NCBI GenBank assembly: GCA_026004395.1 | Contig: BPJB01000001.1 | Location: 225,370 to 263,342 of the forward strand | DNA from: Patescibacteria group bacterium | GTDB taxonomy: Bacteria; Patescibacteriota; Microgenomatia; Levybacterales; UBA12049 | DNA: 37,973 nucleotides | Direction of reading: 5' to 3' | In this document: piece by piece, positions 8,342 to 31,039 of the stretch | Position numbering within the stretch: the stretch's first letter is position 1 | Layout: every line of letters begins with the position of its first letter | Notes under the pieces: model-generated | What the model was told of the DNA's origin: nothing | Seen by the model: the letters and a program-made list of their open reading frames with translations, nothing else | Databases searched by the model: none | Made by a program: the position numbers and the translations under genes

Positions 8342-10072
8342 ATGCAACAAGAACAGATTAGAAATTTCGCAATTATTGCGCATATAGATCATGGTAAATC
8401 GACACTTTCTGATCGATTGCTTGAGATTACCAATACAGTCTCAAAGGATAAACTAAGTGAGCAGTTTCTAGATCAGAATCCTATCAGTAGAGAGCGGGGC
8501 ATTACAATCAAACTTGCTCCTGTTAGGATGCATTATACACTAAGTGGCGTAAGTTATGAACTCAACTTGATTGACACGCCAGGTCATGTTGATTTTTCTT
8601 ATGAAGTATCACGGACTCTAGCAGCATGTGAAGGAGCGATTCTGCTTGTAGATGCTACTCAAGGCATTCAGGCGCAGACAGTTGCGCATTTCTATGCTGC
8701 CAAGAAAGAAGGACTGGTGATGATACCGGTGATTAATAAAATTGATCTTCCTAATGCAATGACAGCAACAGTTATGAAAGAGCTTGTGGATATTTTTGGA
8801 TTTCAAAAAGATGAGATTTTATTAATCTCAGCAAAGACAGGAGAGAACGTTCCTCAACTTCTTGAAAGAATAGTACACAAAATCCCAGCTCCATCAGGCA
8901 ATCCTCTAGGTACTCTCAGAGCTTTGATTTTTGATGCAGTCTATGATGAGTATCGAGGAGTTGTTACGTATATACGTATTATTGATGGCAGTCTTAAAAA
9001 AGGTGATAAAGTAACTTTTTATCAAAGTAACGTTACGTCGGAAGTGACTGATATTGGTTATTTCTCGCCTTTTCTTAGATCTAGTGAAGAACTAACCACA
9101 GGTGAAATAGGATATGTTATCTGTGGAATTAAAAATATCAGAGAAGCTCGTGTAGGAGATACAATAATCAGTTTTGGAGGAGTTGCTAAACCTTTGCCGG
9201 GCTACACAACACCCAAACCTATGGTCTTTTTTGGCATGTATCCAAAAGATCAAAAGAACTTTATTCATCTTCGTGATGCTTTAGGTAAACTTTCTCTTAA
9301 TGACACAGCTATCACCTACACTGAAGAGTATTCAGCATATCTTGGTAGTGGTTTTAGAGTGGGTTTTCTGGGTTTACTCCATGCGGAAATTGTCAAAGAG
9401 CGACTCCAGAAGGAATTTGGACTAGATTTACTGCTTACTATGCCACAAGTTTTATACAAAAGAGAAGATGATGGAAGAATATTAGAACCGTATATGTTGC
9501 TTACCGTGTATGTTCCCAAAGAATATGTCGGAGGGATTATGACAGTTTGTCAAAAGCGAAAAGGAATTCTCGTTGATATGCAGTATCATGAATCGTATGC
9601 TACTCTTTCTTACGAGATGCCTTATACCATGTTTGTGCGAGGCCTATCAGCAGAGTTAAAATCTATATCCAGCGGATATGCCAGTATTGACTATGAACTT
9701 TTAGATTATAAAGAGGCAGATCTTGCTCAACTTGAGGTACGTATTAATGATAATCCAATTGATGTGTTATCGGAACTTGTTTATAAAGATGAGGCAATAT
9801 CTCTCGCGCGGGAGAAAGCGGTAAAACTCAAAGAATCGCTTCCCCGTCAACAATTTAGACAGATTATACAAGCTGTTGTCAATGGCAATATTGTAGCCCG
9901 TGAAGAGATACCTCCTTTTAGAAAAGACGTGCTTGCCAAGATGAGTGGAGGAGATAGAACTCGTAAAGATAAGCTTCTTGAGGCACAAAAGAAAGGTAAA
10001 TCTCGCTTGTTCCAACAAAGTAAAATTCATCTTCCACAAGAAGCACTGTACTCAATTATTGAAAATTCATAG
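8342..10072 (+). CDS. lepA: Elongation factor 4 (LepA) GTPase
   Basis: LepA/EF4 is a ribosome-associated translational GTPase. It is implicated in 30S biogenesis and in back-translocation under stress. The G1 motif AHIDHGKST is at residues 13-21. The switch region with RERGITIK, G3 DTPGHVD and G4 NKIDLP follow. The C-terminal domain unique to LepA ends with GGDRTRKDKLLEAQKKGKSR, which separates it from EF-G and TypA. The 576 residues are slightly short of the usual 600. The gene stands alone, with its stop 4 bases from the convergent surface-protein gene. There is no Shine-Dalgarno. A -10 element ends 9 bases before the ATG, consistent with a leaderless message. It occupies the place after rpsL-rpsG where fusA often lies, but domain content clearly says LepA. 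Confidence 0.96.
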   Translation: MQQEQIRNFAIIAHIDHGKSTLSDRLLEITNTVSKDKLSEQFLDQNPISRERGITIKLAPVRMHYTLSGVSYELNLIDTPGHVDFSYEVSRTLAACEGAILLVDATQGIQAQTVAHFYAAKKEGLVMIPVINKIDLPNAMTATVMKELVDIFGFQKDEILLISAKTGENVPQLLERIVHKIPAPSGNPLGTLRALIFDAVYDEYRGVVTYIRIIDGSLKKGDKVTFYQSNVTSEVTDIGYFSPFLRSSEELTTGEIGYVICGIKNIREARVGDTIISFGGVAKPLPGYTTPKPMVFFGMYPKDQKNFIHLRDALGKLSLNDTAITYTEEYSAYLGSGFRVGFLGLLHAEIVKERLQKEFGLDLLLTMPQVLYKREDDGRILEPYMLLTVYVPKEYVGGIMTVCQKRKGILVDMQYHESYATLSYEMPYTMFVRGLSAELKSISSGYASIDYELLDYKEADLAQLEVRINDNPIDVLSELVYKDEAISLAREKAVKLKESLPRQQFRQIIQAVVNGNIVAREEIPPFRKDVLAKMSGGDRTRKDKLLEAQKKGKSRLFQQSKIHLPQEALYSIIENS

Positions 10073-15803: not shown

Positions 15804-16166
15804 ATGCCAGTCTTAAAACACGCAAAGAAGAAGTTGAGACAAGACATTAAAAGAACCCGTGCAAATAAACGTATTAAATCACTTTATAAACAACTTCTTA
15901 AAAAAGCCAAAGAAAATCCCACAGCAGAAGCAGTAAGTGTTGCATTTAAAGCTATTGATAAAGCAGCAAAGAGAAATGTTATCCATACAAATAAAGCTGC
16001 GCGTCTCAAATCAGCTCTTTCTAAAATATATGCAGGGTCACTAAAGAAGGAACAAAACGTTGAAGATAAGAAAAAAGAAGCAAAAACTTCAGAAAAGACG
16101 GCTAAAAAAACAACTTCAACTACTAAGCTTTCAACCAAAACTAAAAAGGCAGCTGAGAAAAAATAA
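15804..16166 (+). CDS. rpsT: 30S ribosomal protein bS20 with Lys-rich C-terminal extension
   Basis: bS20 is a helical 16S rRNA-binding protein of the 30S body. Residues 1-80 match the family (MPVLKHAKKKLRQDIKRTRANKRIKSLYKQ at the start, then AAKRNVIHTNKAARLKSALSK). Residues about 81-120 are an extra tail of Lys, Thr, Ser and Glu without hydrophobic residues. Typical bS20 is about 85-90 residues, so the tail adds roughly 35. No Shine-Dalgarno is present; the extended -10 lies 6 bases before the ATG. serS follows 43 bases downstream from its own promoter. Confidence 0.93.
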   Translation: MPVLKHAKKKLRQDIKRTRANKRIKSLYKQLLKKAKENPTAEAVSVAFKAIDKAAKRNVIHTNKAARLKSALSKIYAGSLKKEQNVEDKKKEAKTSEKTAKKTTSTTKLSTKTKKAAEKK

Positions 16167-16209: not shown

Positions 16210-17475
16210 ATGATTGATCTTAGTCTTCTGCGTGAAAATCCTCAGGCTATTCAACTTGCAGCTCTTCATAAAGGCGTAACAATTGATGTAGATCATATAC
16301 TTGAGATTGATCAGAAATATCGTGAATTAACGATTTCTGTGCAGACATTGCGTGAAGAACGTAACCGCTTGGCAAGATTAGCTGCTTTGTCAGAGGAAAA
16401 AGAGCGCAAGAAAGCGATAGAAGAAGGCAGAAAACTTAAGATTCTTCTAGAACAAAAAGAACATGCATTATCAGCAGTGAAAGATGAATTGCAACGTATG
16501 CTCCTTTCTATACCGAATCCTGCTAAGCCTGATGTGAAAGTTGGCAAGGATGATTCTGAAAACGAAGTTATAAGGAAGTTTAAAGAGCCCACAAAACTTT
16601 CATTCAATCCTAGAGATCATGTTGAATTGGGTGAAATATTGGATATTATTGATATTGAACGAGCCGCTAAAGTAGCGGGTGCTCGGTTTGCCTATCTTAA
16701 AAATGATGGTGTATTGCTTGAATTGGCATTGGTAAAATATGCATTTGATTTTCTCATAAAGGAAGGCTTCACTCCTGTTATCACTCCAGTTCTTATCAAA
16801 AAAGAGGTTATGAGAGGTCTTGGTTATATGGAACATGGGGGAGAAGAAGATATGTTTTACATACCCACTGACGATTTAATACTTGTTGGAACTGCAGAGC
16901 ATGCACTTGTCCCAATGCATATGAATGAAGTATTAAATAGTAAAGAACTTCCTAAACGCTATGTAGGATTTTCATCTGCATTTCGTCGAGAAGCAGGATC
17001 ATATGGTAAAGATACACGTGGGATTTTACGGGTGCATCAATTTGACAAGGTTGAGATGGTCAGCTTTGTTGAACAAAACAAAGATGATGATGAACATGAG
17101 TATTTATTAGGATTAGAAGAAAAATTGTTTCAATCGCTTGAGATTCCTTATCAGGTAGTAAAGATGTGTACAGGAGATCTTGGATTCCCTGCAGCGCGTA
17201 AATTTGATTTAGAGGCATGGATTCCTTCTCAAGGAAAATACCGTGAAGTGACGTCTGTATCTACAGTAACTGATTTTCAGTCACGCCGTCTTAATATTCG
17301 CTATAGATCAGCTGATCAGACACTGTTCGCATATGTTCTTAATGGTACGGCATTTGCTATTGGAAGAACAATTATTGCTGTTCTTGAAAATTATCAACAG
17401 GAAGATGGTAGTGTTGTCATCCCTGAAGTATTGCGGAATTATATAGGCAAAGACATTCTCAAACCCCGCGTTTAG
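16210..17475 (+). CDS. serS: Seryl-tRNA synthetase
   Basis: This class II synthetase charges tRNA-Ser. The 421-residue protein has normal length. The N-terminal 105 residues form the antiparallel coiled-coil arm that grips the tRNA-Ser variable arm (Glu/Lys-rich, residues about 35-100). The catalytic domain carries the TAEHALVPMH block and motif 2 (FSSAFRREAGSYGKDTRGILRVHQFDKVEM). Motif 3 is near the end (NGTAFAIGRTIIAVLENYQQEDGSVVIPEVL), where the catalytic Arg follows AIG. It is transcribed from its own TTGACC/TATAAT promoter as a probably leaderless message. Downstream is a long non-coding stretch. Confidence 0.97.
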   Translation: MIDLSLLRENPQAIQLAALHKGVTIDVDHILEIDQKYRELTISVQTLREERNRLARLAALSEEKERKKAIEEGRKLKILLEQKEHALSAVKDELQRMLLSIPNPAKPDVKVGKDDSENEVIRKFKEPTKLSFNPRDHVELGEILDIIDIERAAKVAGARFAYLKNDGVLLELALVKYAFDFLIKEGFTPVITPVLIKKEVMRGLGYMEHGGEEDMFYIPTDDLILVGTAEHALVPMHMNEVLNSKELPKRYVGFSSAFRREAGSYGKDTRGILRVHQFDKVEMVSFVEQNKDDDEHEYLLGLEEKLFQSLEIPYQVVKMCTGDLGFPAARKFDLEAWIPSQGKYREVTSVSTVTDFQSRRLNIRYRSADQTLFAYVLNGTAFAIGRTIIAVLENYQQEDGSVVIPEVLRNYIGKDILKPRV

Positions 17476-17780
17476 TGTTTTTATTGAGTTTTTTATTACC
17501 TATTAGAATTAGGATTGTTTTATTGTCCAACATATAATACCTCAGATCTTATCTTTTCTTCTCTATTTTGTAACAAATAAGTAATAAACATATTTATTAT
17601 TTTTTGCTTTTCTCTCAATCTAAACATCAATATTTGAAGCTGATAAATTTTCTTGACACAAAAATCAAAAAGTACAATGATAAAAAGAGATATAGATGAA
17701 TAAGAAAAAGTAAAAGCAAGCAATGCACATACGCAACTTTTATCTTTGCAAATCCCCAATTTAATTATAACGAAGGGGAA
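17476..17780. other. Non-coding AT-rich stretch downstream of serS
   Basis: No convincing gene is seen on either strand. It contains T-rich runs after serS (no strong hairpin), a perfect TTGACA at 17653-17658 without a good -10 at 17 bases (AATGAT), and TATAAC at 17766-17771 close to the small basic-protein gene. The last two may be alternative promoters for that gene, giving leaders of roughly 110 or 20 bases. Confidence 0.5.
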
Positions 17781-17781
17781 G

Positions 17782-17791
17782 GGAGGTGATC
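17782..17791 (+). promoter_or_regulatory. Near-perfect Shine-Dalgarno of the 23-residue protein
   Basis: GGAGGTGATC is fully complementary over ten bases to the canonical bacterial 16S 3' end (GATCACCTCC) and lies 5 bases before an ATG. It is the longest such match in the window and is what identifies the short reading frame as a gene. Confidence 0.8.
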
Positions 17792-17796
17792 TGTTA

Positions 17797-17868
17797 ATGG
17801 CAGCAAAAGCAAAGAAGCGCACAACCAAGAAGACAGCAACCAAACGCACTACAAAGAAGCGAAAGTAA
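17797..17868 (+). CDS. 23-residue Lys/Arg-rich basic protein
   Basis: The predicted product begins MAAKAKKRTTKK and ends TTKKRK; 12 of its 23 residues are Lys or Arg, and the rest are Ala and Thr except the initiator Met. It has no acidic or aromatic residue and no hydrophobic core, so it should be unfolded alone and bind nucleic acid. The composition resembles tails of histone H1-like bacterial proteins, or small basic ribosome-associated proteins such as bTHX; I cannot assign either. The support is a ten-base Shine-Dalgarno five bases upstream and a dedicated terminator at 17901-17930. An antisense reading frame over the same bases is a mirror of the Lys/Arg codons. The isolated unit implies strong, independent expression. 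Confidence 0.72.
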   Translation: MAAKAKKRTTKKTATKRTTKKRK

Positions 17869-17880
17869 AGTTGTTGCTCA

Positions 17881-17900
17881 TACCAATTGATCAATTGGTA
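17881..17900. repeat. Perfect 20-bp palindrome
   Basis: TACCAATTGATCAATTGGTA is identical to its reverse complement over all 20 bases. It lies between the small basic-protein gene and its terminator, 64 bases before the secA ATG. It could be a dyad operator, an RNA hairpin that protects the 3' end, or part of a tandem terminator. Confidence 0.8.
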
Positions 17901-17930
17901 AACCCCGTTCTAGAAATAGGCGGGGTTTTT
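17901..17930 (+). terminator. Intrinsic terminator of the basic-protein gene
   Basis: AACCCCG pairs with CGGGGTT, an inner CTA-GAAA-TAG stem-loop sits inside, and five T follow. It separates the small gene from secA. Confidence 0.88.
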
Positions 17931-17945
17931 ATCGAAGCTAGCATG

Positions 17946-17954
17946 TGCTAAAAT
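17946..17954 (+). promoter_or_regulatory. Extended -10 of secA
   Basis: TGCTAAAAT ends 9 bases before the secA ATG. The -35 area falls in the T run of the preceding terminator and has no TTGACA match, so the extended -10 must carry the signal. A leaderless or near-leaderless transcript is predicted. Confidence 0.6.
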
Positions 17955-17963
17955 AAAGCAGGT

Positions 17964-20642
17964 ATGTTACAGTTCTTACAAAAATTTTTTGATACCAATA
18001 ACCGCGAGATCAAACGCTTAGATGCTATTGTAGCTGAGATTAACTTCCTTGAAGAGAGGATGAGGAAACTTAGAGAAAAAGATTTTCCTCAGAAAACAAA
18101 CGAATTGCGAGAAAGAGTAAAAGAGGGAGAATCTCTGGATAGTATCCTGCCTGAAGCATTTGCACTGGTGAGAGAAGCCTCACGTAGGAGTATAGGACTT
18201 AGGCATTATGATGTGCAACTTATGGCAGCAATTGTGCTTGCTCGCGGCAAGATCGCTGAACAGAAAACAGGGGAAGGAAAAACTCTTTCTGCAGTTCCTG
18301 CTCTCTATCTTAATAGTCTAACAGGTAGGAGTGTTCATTTGGTCACAGTCAATGACTACCTTGCAAGGCGTGATGCTGGGTGGATGGGTCCAATATTCCA
18401 TTTGTTAGGTGTTTCTGTTTCCTCAATAATTAATAATCAATCATTTCTTTTTGATCCAGAACATCAAGATAAGTCTGCTGTTGATCCCCGTCTTGCCCAT
18501 TTGAGGCCGATTACTCGCAAAGAAGCATATCAAGCAGATGTTGTTTATGGCATTAACTCAGAATTTGGCTTTGACTATCTACGCGATAACATGGCTCAAT
18601 CGTTGGATGATACTGTACAGCGCGATTTTTATTATGCTATCGTTGATGAGGTTGATTCTGTTCTTATTGATGAGGCACGTACTCCACATATTATCTCAGC
18701 ACCTGATGAGGCACCATCACATAAATATTATGAATATGCTAAATTGGTCGAGAAATTGAACCCAGACATTGATTATAAAATTGATGAGAAATTACGTACA
18801 GCCCATCTTACTGATCATGGAATTGCCAAAATTGAAAAACTTTTTGGTCTTGCAAATATCTATGAGCAAGATTTCGATACTGTCTATCACATAGAAGCAG
18901 CCTTAAAGGCACGAACTCTTTTTCATCGGGAAAAAGATTATATTGTAAAAGACAACCAGGTAATCTTGATAGATGAGTTCACAGGAAGACTTTTGGAAGG
19001 ACGTCGTCTCTCAGAAGGGCTCCATCAGGCAATTGAAGCAAAAGAGGGTGTTCCGATCCAAAGAGAGTCAAAGACACTTGCTACTGTATCTTTGCAAAAT
19101 TATTTCAGAATGTATGAGAAGCTTGCAGGGATGACAGGTACAGCTGTTACTGAGGCAGAGGAGTTCAATAAAATTTACAAACTAGATGTTGTTGTGATCC
19201 CAACGCACAATCCTATTATCAGAGAAGATTTACCTGATGTTGTATATAAAACAACGCGTGCTAAATTAACAGCTGTTGTTGATGAAATAGTCAAAGCTCA
19301 TAAGAGGGGTCAGCCTGTTCTTATTGGTACAACATCAATTGAAAAGAATGAGATCATTTCAGAGTTATTGAGACGAAAGGGCATTAAACATGAAGTGCTC
19401 AATGCCAAAAATCATGCGCGCGAGGCGCAGATTATAGCACAGGCTGGTAAAAAAGGTGCGGTAACTGTGGCTACCAACATGGCAGGTCGCGGTGTTGATA
19501 TCATCCTAGGAGGAGCTATACCTGAAACAGAAGAGGGTAAAAAACAATGGGAAAAAGAACATAAAGAAATATTGTCATTAGGTGGATTGTATGTGATTGG
19601 TACTGAAAGACATGAATCTCGTCGCATAGATAATCAGCTTCGAGGTCGTTCAGGTCGTCAGGGTGATCCCGGCAAATCTCAATTTTTTGTTGCTCTAGAT
19701 GATGATATTATGCGTCTTTTTGGAGGAGATAAGATTGCATCTCTTATGACTAGATTTAATATGCCTGAAGATGTACCGCTGACTCATCCTTTTGTTTCTC
19801 GAGCAATTGAGAACGCTCAGGTTAAGGTTGAGGGATTTAATTTTGATATTCGCAAACATCTCGTTGAGTACGATGATGTCTTGAACAAGCAGCGTGAGAT
19901 TATTTATTCTTTTAGGCGTAAAGTTCTTGAGTCATCAAAAGATGGTAAAGGTCTGAAAGAAGATGTAATAAAGCGTATAAAGAATGCAGTTTATGATCTT
20001 GTTAGACTAAATATCGAGTCACCATATACAGAAAATGAGAACATAAATGAGAATATTATTAAAGAATTCGCAACGATTATTCCATTTGATGACCAAAGCC
20101 AAAAACAGCTTGTACTTCAGTTAGAACAGCTTCCAACAGATGAGGAGAAAGCAGATTTTCTAATTGGCCTTGCTCAAGATCTTTACGAAAAAAGAGAAGA
20201 ACAAATGGGGAGTGAGATTATGCGTGTGATTGAGCAAAAAATTTTTCTTGATGTCATCGATTATCTCTGGATGGATCATTTGGATGCAATAGAAAATCTA
20301 AGACAAGGAATAGGTCTTCGTGGTTATGCTCAACGTGATCCTTTGGTGGAGTATAAAAATGAGGCATTTCGTATGTTTGAACAGTTAATTAATGCTATTG
20401 ATGATGCAATAGTTCATAGGATCTATAAGATACAGGTAGTGCAGCCTTCAACGAGTATTCATGCTCATATGACGACTAATACTCCTCAGGGTGAGATTAG
20501 CCAAGATAATAAAAATTCAAAATTTTCTTCAGAAAATACCAACCAAACGACTCAGAACAAAAAGAAATTGGGAAGAAATGATCCATGCTGGTGTGGAAGT
20601 GGAAAAAAGTTCAAGAAATGCCACTATCCTGTTTTAGGATAA
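17964..20642 (+). CDS. secA: Preprotein translocase ATPase SecA
   Basis: SecA drives export of unfolded proteins through SecYEG. The 892-residue protein is complete. Walker A (QKTGEGKTLSAVPALYL) is near residue 100, and VNDYLARRDAGWMGPI follows. The DEAD-type DEVDSVLIDEART is near residue 226 and INSEFGFDYLRDNM lies just upstream of it. The helicase motif GRAGRQGDPG is represented as RGRSGRQGDPG. The C-terminus is the zinc-binding SEC-C tail with ligands in DPCWCGSGKKFKKCH, preceded by a Ser/Asn/Gln-rich linker. This tail normally binds SecB or the ribosome. Three small unrecognised genes follow, the first only 7 bases after the stop. Confidence 0.97.
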   Translation: MLQFLQKFFDTNNREIKRLDAIVAEINFLEERMRKLREKDFPQKTNELRERVKEGESLDSILPEAFALVREASRRSIGLRHYDVQLMAAIVLARGKIAEQKTGEGKTLSAVPALYLNSLTGRSVHLVTVNDYLARRDAGWMGPIFHLLGVSVSSIINNQSFLFDPEHQDKSAVDPRLAHLRPITRKEAYQADVVYGINSEFGFDYLRDNMAQSLDDTVQRDFYYAIVDEVDSVLIDEARTPHIISAPDEAPSHKYYEYAKLVEKLNPDIDYKIDEKLRTAHLTDHGIAKIEKLFGLANIYEQDFDTVYHIEAALKARTLFHREKDYIVKDNQVILIDEFTGRLLEGRRLSEGLHQAIEAKEGVPIQRESKTLATVSLQNYFRMYEKLAGMTGTAVTEAEEFNKIYKLDVVVIPTHNPIIREDLPDVVYKTTRAKLTAVVDEIVKAHKRGQPVLIGTTSIEKNEIISELLRRKGIKHEVLNAKNHAREAQIIAQAGKKGAVTVATNMAGRGVDIILGGAIPETEEGKKQWEKEHKEILSLGGLYVIGTERHESRRIDNQLRGRSGRQGDPGKSQFFVALDDDIMRLFGGDKIASLMTRFNMPEDVPLTHPFVSRAIENAQVKVEGFNFDIRKHLVEYDDVLNKQREIIYSFRRKVLESSKDGKGLKEDVIKRIKNAVYDLVRLNIESPYTENENINENIIKEFATIIPFDDQSQKQLVLQLEQLPTDEEKADFLIGLAQDLYEKREEQMGSEIMRVIEQKIFLDVIDYLWMDHLDAIENLRQGIGLRGYAQRDPLVEYKNEAFRMFEQLINAIDDAIVHRIYKIQVVQPSTSIHAHMTTNTPQGEISQDNKNSKFSSENTNQTTQNKKKLGRNDPCWCGSGKKFKKCHYPVLG

Positions 20643-20649
20643 GAAAATT

Positions 20650-21039
20650 GTGGAAAAATCATCTATAAATCCAAAAGAGAGAGAAGAGTTAGCTGCAACT
20701 TCTGCAGGAGAATCATCAGAGAACAAACAGAGAGCCTCTAAGGAGAGATATACTGCACTGCTTTCAAGGTATACTCAGTATACAGAACAGATCCGTCACA
20801 TGCAGTACCTCATGCGACCCTTTGATGATATTCATCAGATTGACTTGAAGGGTTCAGAGCTACATCGCAAGTTGGAGGAGCTAGGAGCAAAGCTTGGCAA
20901 AGATACAGAAGATATTGGGCTTGATATACTTCTTCATGAAGGCAATCTGCGAGAGTATGGTATTAATGCGCCACTCATAGGTTTGTCACTGGTTGGTCTT
21001 ACTTTTCGATACCGTGAAGAAGAAGAAAGGTTGAAATAA
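20650..21039 (+). CDS. Hypothetical protein 1 of the secA-linked trio
   Basis: I do not recognise this 129-residue protein. It starts with GTG 7 bases after the secA stop; no in-frame ATG occurs before residue 52, so GTG is the best choice. Residues 1-30 are polar and probably disordered (Ser/Glu/Lys). Residues 30-90 look helical with heptad-like spacing (RYTALLSRYTQYTEQIRHMQYLMRPF, SELHRKLEELGAKLG). A short, more hydrophobic segment follows (INAPLIGLSLVGLTFRY) and the end is acidic/basic. There is no signal peptide or full membrane helix. The tight spacing says it is co-transcribed with secA. It could be a CPR-specific secretion accessory factor or an unrelated passenger; sequence alone does not decide. 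Confidence 0.6.
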   Translation: MEKSSINPKEREELAATSAGESSENKQRASKERYTALLSRYTQYTEQIRHMQYLMRPFDDIHQIDLKGSELHRKLEELGAKLGKDTEDIGLDILLHEGNLREYGINAPLIGLSLVGLTFRYREEEERLK

Positions 21040-21056
21040 CTGATAAAAGTAACCAG

Positions 21057-21482
21057 ATGCCAACACAGGAGCTTAAAACACCTGATGGGAAGAGTATTGC
21101 TGCTTGTTATCAACAATATACCTTAATGGGGGATTATAAACCAAGGGGTGGTCGTTATTATAAAAGGAGTGAGGATGAAAAGAAAAAGTATAATCCCTAT
21201 AAAATAATTATCAGTGGTAAAGCAGATGAGATAGAGAAATGGAAGCAAGGTAGATACTTTGCAATTATTTTTTCACGCTTTCGTAGAAGTTATGCAGACT
21301 TTATCCCTCAAACTGGATCTTTACTGCATACTACAAGAGTTAAACGGATGACTGCGCTAGCCAAAGATTTTGGACTTAACTTGTATATAGCTTCTGATAT
21401 TATGGGTCATCGAGATTATGGGCCGGAAGAGTTGTTTGGCATTGAAGTACCCAAGGAGTTGATGAAATCGCAAAAGCGATGA
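21057..21482 (+). CDS. Hypothetical protein 2 of the secA-linked trio
   Basis: I do not recognise this 141-residue protein. It is basic and rich in Tyr, Lys and Arg (residues 28-50, GDYKPRGGRYYKRSEDEKKKYNPYK). A predicted alpha/beta part follows (IIISGKADEIEKWKQGRYFAIIFSRFRRSYADF), then HTTRVKRMTALAKDFGLNLYIASDIMGHRDYG. The composition suggests nucleic-acid or ribosome binding, but no named motif is visible. The ATG at 21057 is 17 bases after the preceding stop, without an obvious Shine-Dalgarno. Its stop overlaps the next start as ATGA, so the next gene is translationally coupled. The three reading frames of the trio differ and each has its own start, so they are not pieces of one broken gene. 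Confidence 0.62.
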   Translation: MPTQELKTPDGKSIAACYQQYTLMGDYKPRGGRYYKRSEDEKKKYNPYKIIISGKADEIEKWKQGRYFAIIFSRFRRSYADFIPQTGSLLHTTRVKRMTALAKDFGLNLYIASDIMGHRDYGPEELFGIEVPKELMKSQKR

Positions 21483-21838
21483 GAGAGTATCCGCAGAAAT
21501 ATTATTTGACAGAAGATGAGCTGATTGATCCATATAGGAGAGATTTTTTGGAAGAGGAAAGTGAAGAATCTCTCATGGCTATGAGATATGCGCTGGATAT
21601 CAAACACGCTATTTTAATTAGACGAGGTCAAGAGCCAGAATGGAATTTTTGGTATGATTTACTTAGACTAGAGGATGTATTTAATAAGAAAACTGGGAGA
21701 TATCTGTATTGGGGTCACTCATTTTTTGATAAGGTGAATAATGCGATAAATCAACTTCAAAATGTCAATCCCCAAATCGCTGAAGAAATGGATAGAATAC
21801 TACAAGACATACGTCAAGCATACCTTAAAGGTCAATAA
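21479..21838 (+). CDS. Hypothetical protein 3 of the secA-linked trio
   Basis: I do not recognise this 119-residue protein. It is acidic at the N-terminus (EDELIDPYRRDFLEEESEES). The rest is likely helical, with several Trp/Tyr residues (EPEWNFWYDLLRLEDVF, RYLYWGHSFFDKVNNAINQL) and a C-terminal helix (IAEEMDRILQDIRQAYLKG). No membrane segment or signal peptide is present. It begins within the stop of the preceding gene (ATGA overlap, bases 21479-21482), so the pair is probably made in fixed ratio. The opposite net charge of proteins 2 and 3 fits a complex between them, but that is only an inference. Confidence 0.62.
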   Translation: MREYPQKYYLTEDELIDPYRRDFLEEESEESLMAMRYALDIKHAILIRRGQEPEWNFWYDLLRLEDVFNKKTGRYLYWGHSFFDKVNNAINQLQNVNPQIAEEMDRILQDIRQAYLKGQ

Positions 21839-24555: not shown

Positions 24556-25017
24556 ATGCAGTTTTTTATTGGGTACGCCACCTACTCCAGTGGCACACTC
24601 TTGGTTAGCGAAATTATTGAAAATGAACTCAATAAAGTAAGTGCAAGAGTTGTTAGAAAAGATATTAGATACGCAAGCAAAAACGATCTTAAGCAAAGTG
24701 ATGTTGTTATTCTTGGTTCACCCAGTTGGTGGAATAGGCATAAAGATGGAATGCCCCATGAGTTCATGCTCTCATTTATGGAGTCTTTGCAGGGGTTTAC
24801 CTTTCCTGCTAAAAAATTTGCTATTTTTGGTCTTGGTGATACTGCCTATGCCAAATTTTGCGGCGCTGTTGATCAGCTGGAAGATTTCGTAGGATCTCTC
24901 AAAGGTGAACTAATTGTCCCTTCACTGCGAATTGATGGATTTTTCTTCCAACAAAAAGAAAATGAAAAAAAAGTAAAAGAATGGACGCAGAAGATCATCT
25001 CACATATAAATTGGTAA
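24556..25017 (+). CDS. Flavodoxin-like FMN-binding protein
   Basis: The 153-residue protein has the flavodoxin fold. The N-terminal phosphate loop is YATYSSGTLLVSEII, where the SSGT replaces the common T-x-T-G-N-T. The second loop SDVVILGSPSWWNR carries aromatic residues for the isoalloxazine ring. The third is KKFAIFGLGDTAYAKFCGAVDQLEDFV, a strong flavodoxin signature. No signal peptide is present, so it should be a cytoplasmic single- or two-electron carrier. No partner oxidoreductase is nearby. It is a single gene, with DUF2795 107 bases downstream. The changed phosphate loop leaves FMN binding likely but not proven. Confidence 0.85.
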   Translation: MQFFIGYATYSSGTLLVSEIIENELNKVSARVVRKDIRYASKNDLKQSDVVILGSPSWWNRHKDGMPHEFMLSFMESLQGFTFPAKKFAIFGLGDTAYAKFCGAVDQLEDFVGSLKGELIVPSLRIDGFFFQQKENEKKVKEWTQKIISHINW

Positions 25018-29608: not shown

Positions 29609-31039
29609 ATGATTGAGCGTAAGACTTTAGCGCAGCGTCTTGCTGAACGTCGTGCATTACAAAGAGCTACTGCAATTAATGGCCATGTAACTGAGGAGGA
29701 ATCAGCATCACCTAACTCTAATCAAAGAGATATTCATTTAGATGCAAACCCTAATTCAAAAGATAAAAACTTGCTTGTACCTCTTTCATTACTGACAAAA
29801 AATAATTCTGATCCACAAAGTAGAAATAATATTTTCCCTAATGATGATGAATTCATGGACAATCTTCTCCAGGAGGAAGAATTTGCCAAAAAGATAATTG
29901 CAGAAAACTTCAGTGATGACTTGGATACAACTTCAACTGATCCCATGACTATTTATTTACAAGAAATTGGTAGATTTCCGCTTCTAACAGCTCAGCAAGA
30001 AATTGATCTTGCACAGAGAAAAGATAGAGGAGATGAAAATGCAAAACGAATGCTAATACAGCACAATCTGCGTTTGGTGGTCACTATTGCAAAAAAGTAT
30101 GTGAATTCTTCTAATCTTTCATTAAGTGATCTGATACAGGAAGGAAATATTGGTTTGATGCGAGCTGTTGACAGATATGATTGGGCAAGAGGATTTAGAT
30201 TCTCAACCTATGCAGTCTGGTGGATTCGCCAGAGCATAAAAAGAGCAATATTAGATAAAAGCAATACTATTCGTGTTCCTGCTTATATAGAACTGGAAGC
30301 TAATAGAATGATATCTACTCAAGAAGCATTAAAAATGTCATTGGGAAGAGATCCTACACTGGATGAAGTTAGAGAAGCTATGTCTATTACCAACGATCGA
30401 TTGGAAAATATCTTACAAGCAGAAGGTTTAAAACAAATGAGCTACTTGTCTAAAACTGTGACAGAGGAAGGACGAAAACTCTCTGAATTTATTCCAAGTG
30501 ATGATATTTCTGTTGAAGATTTAGGAAGTGCATCTTTTGAATTTGATAGATTCCTTCAGAGCTTGAATAAATTAACAGAAAGGGAAAGATTTATAATCAT
30601 CGAACATAAAGCAAAGCAAAGAACTCTTGAAGAAGTTGGAAAGGATCTGGATCTGTCTCGGGAAAGAGTAAGACAAATTATGAATAGAGCTTTAGAAAAA
30701 TTACGTAATTATCTTGAAATTGGAGAATATGTCCCTAAGGAAGAGAGTTCAGAAGAAGTTAGTATTAAGGAAAATCTACAAGACAATGATACTCAAGAGA
30801 AGATTTTTCATCTATCCGATCGTGAGAAAGCAATAATTATCCTTATGTCACAGGGGTTGTCATACAAAGAGATTGCTGCACATCTGGGAATTAATCCTAG
30901 CAATATAAAAAATCTGGTAAGTAAAATTTTTCGAAAGTTAGGTGTAAATAACCGTTTTGAATTATTTGGTATTGCCTATAAAGAAGGTATTCTTCCTCTT
31001 GATGGAAATAATGATTTGAGAGAAGGAAAGGAAGTGTAA
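29609..31039 (+). CDS. Sigma70-family factor fused to a C-terminal LuxR-type HTH
   Basis: The 476-residue protein is a primary-type sigma factor. Region 1.2 starts near residue 112 (PMTIYLQEIGRFPLLT). Region 2 follows, with NLRLVVTIAKKYV, LSLSDLIQEGNIGLMRAVDRYDWARGFRFSTYAVWWIRQSIKRAI, which contacts the -10. Region 3 and region 4 (LTERERFIIIEHKAKQRTLEEVGKDLDLSRERVRQIMNRALEKLRNYL) end near residue 370. A second HTH follows at about 400-460: LSDREKAIIILMSQGLSYKEIAAHLGINPSNIKNLVSKIFRKLGV. This is the GerE/LuxR pattern and is not part of normal sigma factors. Region 1.1 is not recognisable; residues 1-110 are polar. It is probably either the housekeeping sigma or a close paralogue; no other sigma gene is in the window. 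Confidence 0.9.
   Translation: MIERKTLAQRLAERRALQRATAINGHVTEEESASPNSNQRDIHLDANPNSKDKNLLVPLSLLTKNNSDPQSRNNIFPNDDEFMDNLLQEEEFAKKIIAENFSDDLDTTSTDPMTIYLQEIGRFPLLTAQQEIDLAQRKDRGDENAKRMLIQHNLRLVVTIAKKYVNSSNLSLSDLIQEGNIGLMRAVDRYDWARGFRFSTYAVWWIRQSIKRAILDKSNTIRVPAYIELEANRMISTQEALKMSLGRDPTLDEVREAMSITNDRLENILQAEGLKQMSYLSKTVTEEGRKLSEFIPSDDISVEDLGSASFEFDRFLQSLNKLTERERFIIIEHKAKQRTLEEVGKDLDLSRERVRQIMNRALEKLRNYLEIGEYVPKEESSEEVSIKENLQDNDTQEKIFHLSDREKAIIILMSQGLSYKEIAAHLGINPSNIKNLVSKIFRKLGVNNRFELFGIAYKEGILPLDGNNDLREGKEV

Follow-up and report, generated by a model that had tools for sequence, protein, structure and literature searches.

A candidate microgene for a short polycationic peptide upstream of secA in Levybacteria-like Patescibacteria

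In a Levybacteria-like bacterium, the interval between serS and secA appears to hold an independent microgene whose short polycationic product would be made in large amounts and would bind nucleic acids by charge. Our comparative sequence analysis leads us to give this reading a probability of roughly 0.6. The window, meaning the whole 37,973-nt stretch of DNA analyzed, comes from a genome of a single 1.08-Mb contig, and the closest relatives of its SecA belong to Candidatus Levybacteria/Levyibacteriota (Microgenomates, Patescibacteria). An earlier sequence-only reading had described in this interval a small, complete, and probably highly expressed unit; with its own promoter, Shine–Dalgarno (SD) sequence, ORF, and terminator, and with conservation in relatives, the unit still merits that description. 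The relevant features are as follows, in window coordinates.

16210..17475, plus strand: serS, the upstream neighbor, assigned from sequence and labeled so in the sequence-only reading
17653..17681, plus strand: predicted microgene promoter, TTGACA, a 17-nt spacer and AATGAT (NANNNT), from a promoter scan and from relatives
17754..17778, plus strand: possible, tentatively placed 5′UTR stem, CCCC (17754-57) with GGGG (17775-78), immediately 5′ of the SD
17782..17791, plus strand: extended SD GGAGGTGATC, 10 nt complementary to the 16S 3′ end
17797..17868, plus strand: micro-ORF for the 23-aa polycationic microprotein MAAKAKKRTTKKTATKRTTKKRK, with ATG at 17797 and TAA ending at 17868
17882..17899, unstranded: perfect 18-bp palindrome ACCAATTGATCAATTGGT, predicted from relatives and folding to form RNA hairpin H2 of a lineage-specific 3′ element
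17900..17930, plus strand: G+C-rich intrinsic terminator of the microgene, stem AAACCCCG/CGGGGTTT, inner CTA-GAAA-TAG, then T5
17946..17954, plus strand: extended −10 promoter of secA, TGCTAAAAT, 10 nt before the secA ATG and also seen in relatives
17964..20642, plus strand: secA, the downstream neighbor, predicted from its own promoter to be transcribed separately

The sequence-only reading had called this ribosome binding site the strongest in the window, a ten-base SD five bases from a frame with 12 basic residues (K/R) among 23. All of these figures hold, and when 32 window genes are scored against the anti-SD tail, the 10-nt pairing of the micro-ORF (−21.9 kcal/mol) is both the longest and the most stable, the runner-up being groEL with 8 nt and −15.6 kcal/mol. 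Most of the other genes scored lack an SD, while an SD of the AAGGAGGTGA type precedes nearly all relatives of the micro-ORF. Upstream, TTGACA-N16-18-NANNNT is found at every one of the 37 copies whose 5′ flank is long enough to test (2% of shuffles). The promoter and the palindrome are features beyond those that the sequence-only reading had described. The dedicated terminator that it had proposed is borne out by a fold z of −3.4 for 17866-17935 (strand folding against shuffles); its energy is about −15.5 kcal/mol in the window and has a median of −20 in relatives, and its loop length explains why a simple terminator scan passed over it. A conserved 5′UTR hairpin was considered as a general feature and rejected, the fold of the upstream 60 nt having a median z of −1.2 across relatives, marginal against shuffles. 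Judged by these signals, the micro-ORF is apparently strongly expressed. Many other window genes show no SD and a −10-like TGnTAnnAT or TATAAT about 7–12 nt before the start (17946-17954, and before rpsT at 15804, lepA at 8342, serS at 16210, the rpoD-like gene at 29609, and the starts at 24556 and 31990), a pattern that suggests mostly leaderless mRNAs; the micro-ORF departs from it in having a long leader and a 10-nt SD.

A protein-level search with the 23-mer returned only the self-match and is uninformative because the query is too short and of low complexity. Relatives were sought instead by position at secA loci, by pattern, and by RNA and sequence models. We fetched 80 secA loci of relatives and examined 400 nt upstream of each, which gave, with the window included, 77 testable regions from Levybacteria-like Microgenomates; an ORF was counted if it was short, preceded by an SD, rich in K/R, and free of acidic residues, and first-order shuffles served as controls. 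The short basic frame that the sequence-only reading had expected between serS and secA in related genomes is present in 40 of these regions, against 12 of 7,700 shuffled ones. These ORFs, whose conservation extends across genera, encode 8–23 aa, mostly M-A-K(n), typical products being MAKKKKKKK, MAKKKKKSKKRK, MAAKKKAKKKATKKRK, MARKKAKRKKRKKRKK, and MPVKKKKKVSKKVVKSKSKKKK. Frameshifts or stops in close relatives had been named as what would speak against the gene; no broken frame was seen, relatives having either an intact ORF or no unit at all. In L004, L017, and L033, for example, serS runs almost directly into secA. These three are close relatives, and their natural absences of the microgene are useful for comparison. 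Model R1, which represents the entire unit, finds it in 23 of 27 same-family genomes of a class-wide sample, as well as in other families; it is absent from the remaining four (G001, G005, G016, and G078) and so is not indispensable.

Families f5, f9, f10, f14, and f45 of the Microgenomia also have copies elsewhere than at secA, with unrelated genes as neighbors. Those of f9 stand upstream of a glycosyltransferase gene and encode MAKKRKKKR, MAKKRKKKK, MAKKKKKKSKK, and MAKKKKKKK, each with an SD and a terminator; f5 has MAKKKKKK and MPKKKKKK and f10 has MPAKKTTTKKTTAKKTTTKKKKK, beside other genes; thrS, too, is among the genes that have a copy upstream. Elsewhere in Patescibacteria, the same AAGGAGGTGA signal precedes longer analogues of 24, 34, 42, and 58 aa. 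Homology of the distant ORFs is unprovable from such sequences, and convergence is possible. Weak matches to models R2 and R1 (L154, L163, L206, L211, L212, and L220 among others) were rejected as longer proteins or noise once their frames had been read. One genome, G032, carries a second copy besides the 10-aa one before secA, a 35-aa paralogue, MPAKKKAKKKVVKKKVAKKTVKKTTKKKATKKKRK, at L168:2298-2405 of the oriented locus.

Three independent signs make a clear case, at the level of sequence, for selection on the peptide itself. The first is composition. Across 67 distinct coding sequences, the 894 residues after the start comprise K572, A138, R71, T49, V26, P19, S10, G6, and M3, a K+R share of 72%, and contain no D or E where about 109 would be expected from position-specific base frequencies; the filter used to match micro-ORFs (K/R ≥ 0.42) partly favors this composition test and does not exclude D or E. 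E abounds when the same DNA is read in the +2 frame (the codon-phase test), and GAR codons are only one transition away from AAR, yet acidic residues are absent from the micro-peptides; selection for purine-rich RNA cannot be the source of this absence. The second sign is codon choice: AAG makes up 62% of lysine codons in the micro-ORFs versus 22% in the secA genes at those loci, with the bias in this direction at 39 of 41 loci (Wilcoxon p 5e-12). The longest A-run averages 5.95 (maximum 8), where a mean of 12.2 would be expected under secA codon use. Robust sliding of Escherichia coli ribosomes occurs at A11, and strings of AAG codons provoke no sliding (PMC4363877). The runs seen here, of at most 8, stay below the sliding length, so the codons would protect a faithful product; and since the lysine codons appear chosen to avoid sliding, that faithful product would matter. 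The third sign is that the ORF outlasts the RNA element that follows it, being retained at loci that lack the 3′ palindrome element or carry a decayed form of it (L022, L025, L026, L030, and L044). What is kept across copies is charge, with K/R and small residues (A/T/S/V/P/G) and, in most cases, A or P next to the start; length, from 8 to 58 aa, and exact residue order drift. The micro-ORF is thus very likely a translated, selected gene. Its low-complexity composition and A-rich lysine codons would also be those of a chance ORF in A-rich intergenic DNA, an explanation that the shuffle controls, the codon-phase test, the AAG bias, and the conservation across genera refute, leaving its probability close to nil.

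The 3′ element raises a different question, namely whether function lies in the RNA and not in the peptide. The transcript would then be a regulatory or dual-function RNA in which translation of the ORF does no more than position a ribosome beside alternating hairpins. In f1 and the relatives closest to it, TTGGTAAGCwATTTGGAGCATTACCAATTGATCAGTTGGTAA comes after the stop codon. In close relatives this element can be divided, directly after the stop, into segments TTGGTAA / TTACCAAT / GTTGGTAA, or, as delimited in L002-L066, TTGGTAA / TTACCAATTGATCA / GTTGGTAA, with a near-invariant TGATCA loop region. Hairpins 1:2 (median −8.6 kcal/mol) and 2:3 (−7.3) are mutually exclusive and of similar strength, pairing amounts to 97% in the 2:3 helix and 86% in the 1:2 helix, and a ribosome terminating at the stop would cover segment 1. 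The palindrome is also unique in its genome: a search at up to 2 mismatches found no second copy, which removed it as a candidate genome-wide DNA operator or repeat, and an Rfam search of 17400-18100 gave no match at E up to 1. Against the RNA reading, the element is confined to two families, the window's own and a neighboring one; the ORF persists without hairpin 1, both in the window, where hairpin 2 is perfect, and in L024, L045, and L060, as it does without an intact palindrome; covariation is weak; and the selection on peptide charge would go unexplained. We regard this reading as improbable. In close relatives, nevertheless, the bistable element suggests a layer of regulation that lies outside the polycation model.

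The location invites comparison with secA regulation. Expression of secA is regulated by the upstream arrest peptide SecM, and the arrangement here is similar in having a small ORF upstream of secA and structured RNA in between. Polylysine slows ribosomes (PMC4363877), and such pausing, or a SecM-like arrest, could in principle tune terminator read-through into secA; the copies in families f1 and f2 are indeed seen 74–290 nt upstream of secA, with the terminator in between. However, an extended −10 promoter (TGnTAnnnT no more than 60 nt from the secA start) is found at 68 of 81 loci, with or without the micro-ORF, versus 9% of shuffles, so that secA would have its own promoter even where the unit is absent. 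The terminator, judged from sequence, stands apart from the alternating hairpins and does not overlap them. The unit is not always upstream of secA, the copies before the glycosyltransferase gene, thrS, and others being cases in point. Unlike SecM, the micro-ORF is far too short, products of 8–12 aa being unable to exit the tunnel and sense secretion, and its codons are selected against sliding; no export signal, C-terminal arrest motif, or hydrophobic stretch was found in the 8–23 aa peptides. Because of the separate secA promoter, the copies elsewhere, and the independence of terminator and hairpins, a leader peptide or attenuator of secA is very improbable.

In the main rival reading, the product would be a new, lineage-specific tiny ribosomal protein seated in a defined rRNA pocket, like the mycobacterial bL37 and bS22 or Thermus Thx. 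These proteins are similarly small (about 24–33 aa), very basic, and missed by annotation. Proteins of this kind, such as bL37, keep specific residues. Size, charge, the strong SD, and the apparent high expression all agree with such a role, as do the gene-expression cluster of the window (rpoBC, rpsL, rpsG, rpsT, and serS) and a distant copy (L208) that follows rplM-rpsI; a precedent exists in bL37 (24 aa), itself detected solely by cryo-EM (PMC5876184). In contrast to bL37, bS22, and Thx, with their specific conserved residues and fixed site, the micro-peptides conserve composition only. Binding in a pocket should preserve specific side chains, whereas lengths here range from 8 to 58 aa and positions are not conserved, be it for an aromatic residue, a glycine, or any other specific side chain. 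No PDB sequence matched at E up to 10, and the window peptide had no hit in Pfam or NCBIfam. A dedicated ribosomal protein is therefore, in our estimate, unlikely.

The preferred reading, a free peptide acting by charge, finds its closest parallels in histone H1-like proteins. Like Chlamydia Hc2 and the KPAA tails of AlgP and PhaF, the micro-peptides are rich in K/A/T/V/P, lack acidic residues (K+R 72%, D+E 0 in the 894 residues), have a repeat-like order, and tolerate variation in length. The length of Hc2 varies through lysine-rich repeats (PMC2848022), and the KPAA tail of AlgP binds DNA and polyphosphate granules (PMC9239181). Unlike H1-like proteins, they would be free peptides of 8–35 aa without a folded domain; the 42- and 58-aa patescibacterial analogues resemble a free H1 tail. 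In profile searches, the window peptide matched neither HC2 (PF07382) nor NF038053 (NCBIfam); the 42-aa analogue alone reached PF07382, at E=0.14 and 12.7 bits, below the cut-off of 40, and the best match to NF038053 was likewise subthreshold (E=2.1). The conservation of charge with free length and order suggests that the micro-peptide works like an H1-type tail.

In the proposed mechanism, the dedicated promoter, ten-base SD, polybasic ORF, and own terminator would yield a monocistronic transcript, with secA served by its separate promoter, and the product, made in bulk, would be a short peptide that is strongly positive and has no fixed structure. Resembling a detached C-terminal tail of histone H1, this free peptide might bind polyanions by charge alone, whether DNA, rRNA or mRNA, or possibly polyphosphate, and so help to compact the nucleoid or neutralize RNA in a very small cell. 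Our confidence in an action on nucleic acids through bulk charge is moderate. The sequence-only reading had proposed a nucleoid-compacting or ribosome-associated peptide, and either role would fit the composition. HU is alike in being an abundant basic nucleoid protein and differs in being of unrelated fold and size and separately encoded in the same genomes. HU (PF00216) was found in all near-complete family genomes searched. The micro-peptide would accordingly be no stand-in for HU, and with HU present a nucleoid role is not obviously needed. An HU substitute, or an HU tail lost in genomes without the unit, was rejected as an explanation, HU being present and the HU C-termini that were read having no lysine-rich tail.

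Extended beyond this family, the argument becomes more tentative. It is possible, though we would put it at somewhat short of even odds, that many Patescibacteria devote a strongly expressed gene to a near-homopolymeric lysine peptide, in some cases as short as 8–9 residues, that serves as an encoded polyamine-like polycation packing the nucleoid or ribosome. If this is true, few of the conserved protein-coding genes known would be shorter. A literature search of partial coverage found no description of the microgene. This class had little chance of detection: gene callers drop ORFs so short, and tryptic proteomics would overlook peptides cleaved at almost every residue. Specifically, the metaproteomic evidence that the sequence-only reading had suggested seeking would fail under standard tryptic protocols because trypsin leaves of these peptides only pieces one to four residues long. 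If the peptide is made as strongly as its signals imply, all models of what makes up the nucleoid and the ribosome of these ultrasmall bacteria miss a component. The microgene would also be a very simple system, with selection on charge and codon phase and almost no sequence constraint.

Two further observations concern the neighborhood. Three successive small ORFs of 129, 141, and 119 aa follow secA (20650-21838); a Pfam scan of the first two found no family above cut-off. Ribosomal protein S20, encoded at 15804-16166, bears a long K/T/A-rich C-terminal extension (approximately residues 80–120) whose composition resembles that of the micro-peptide.
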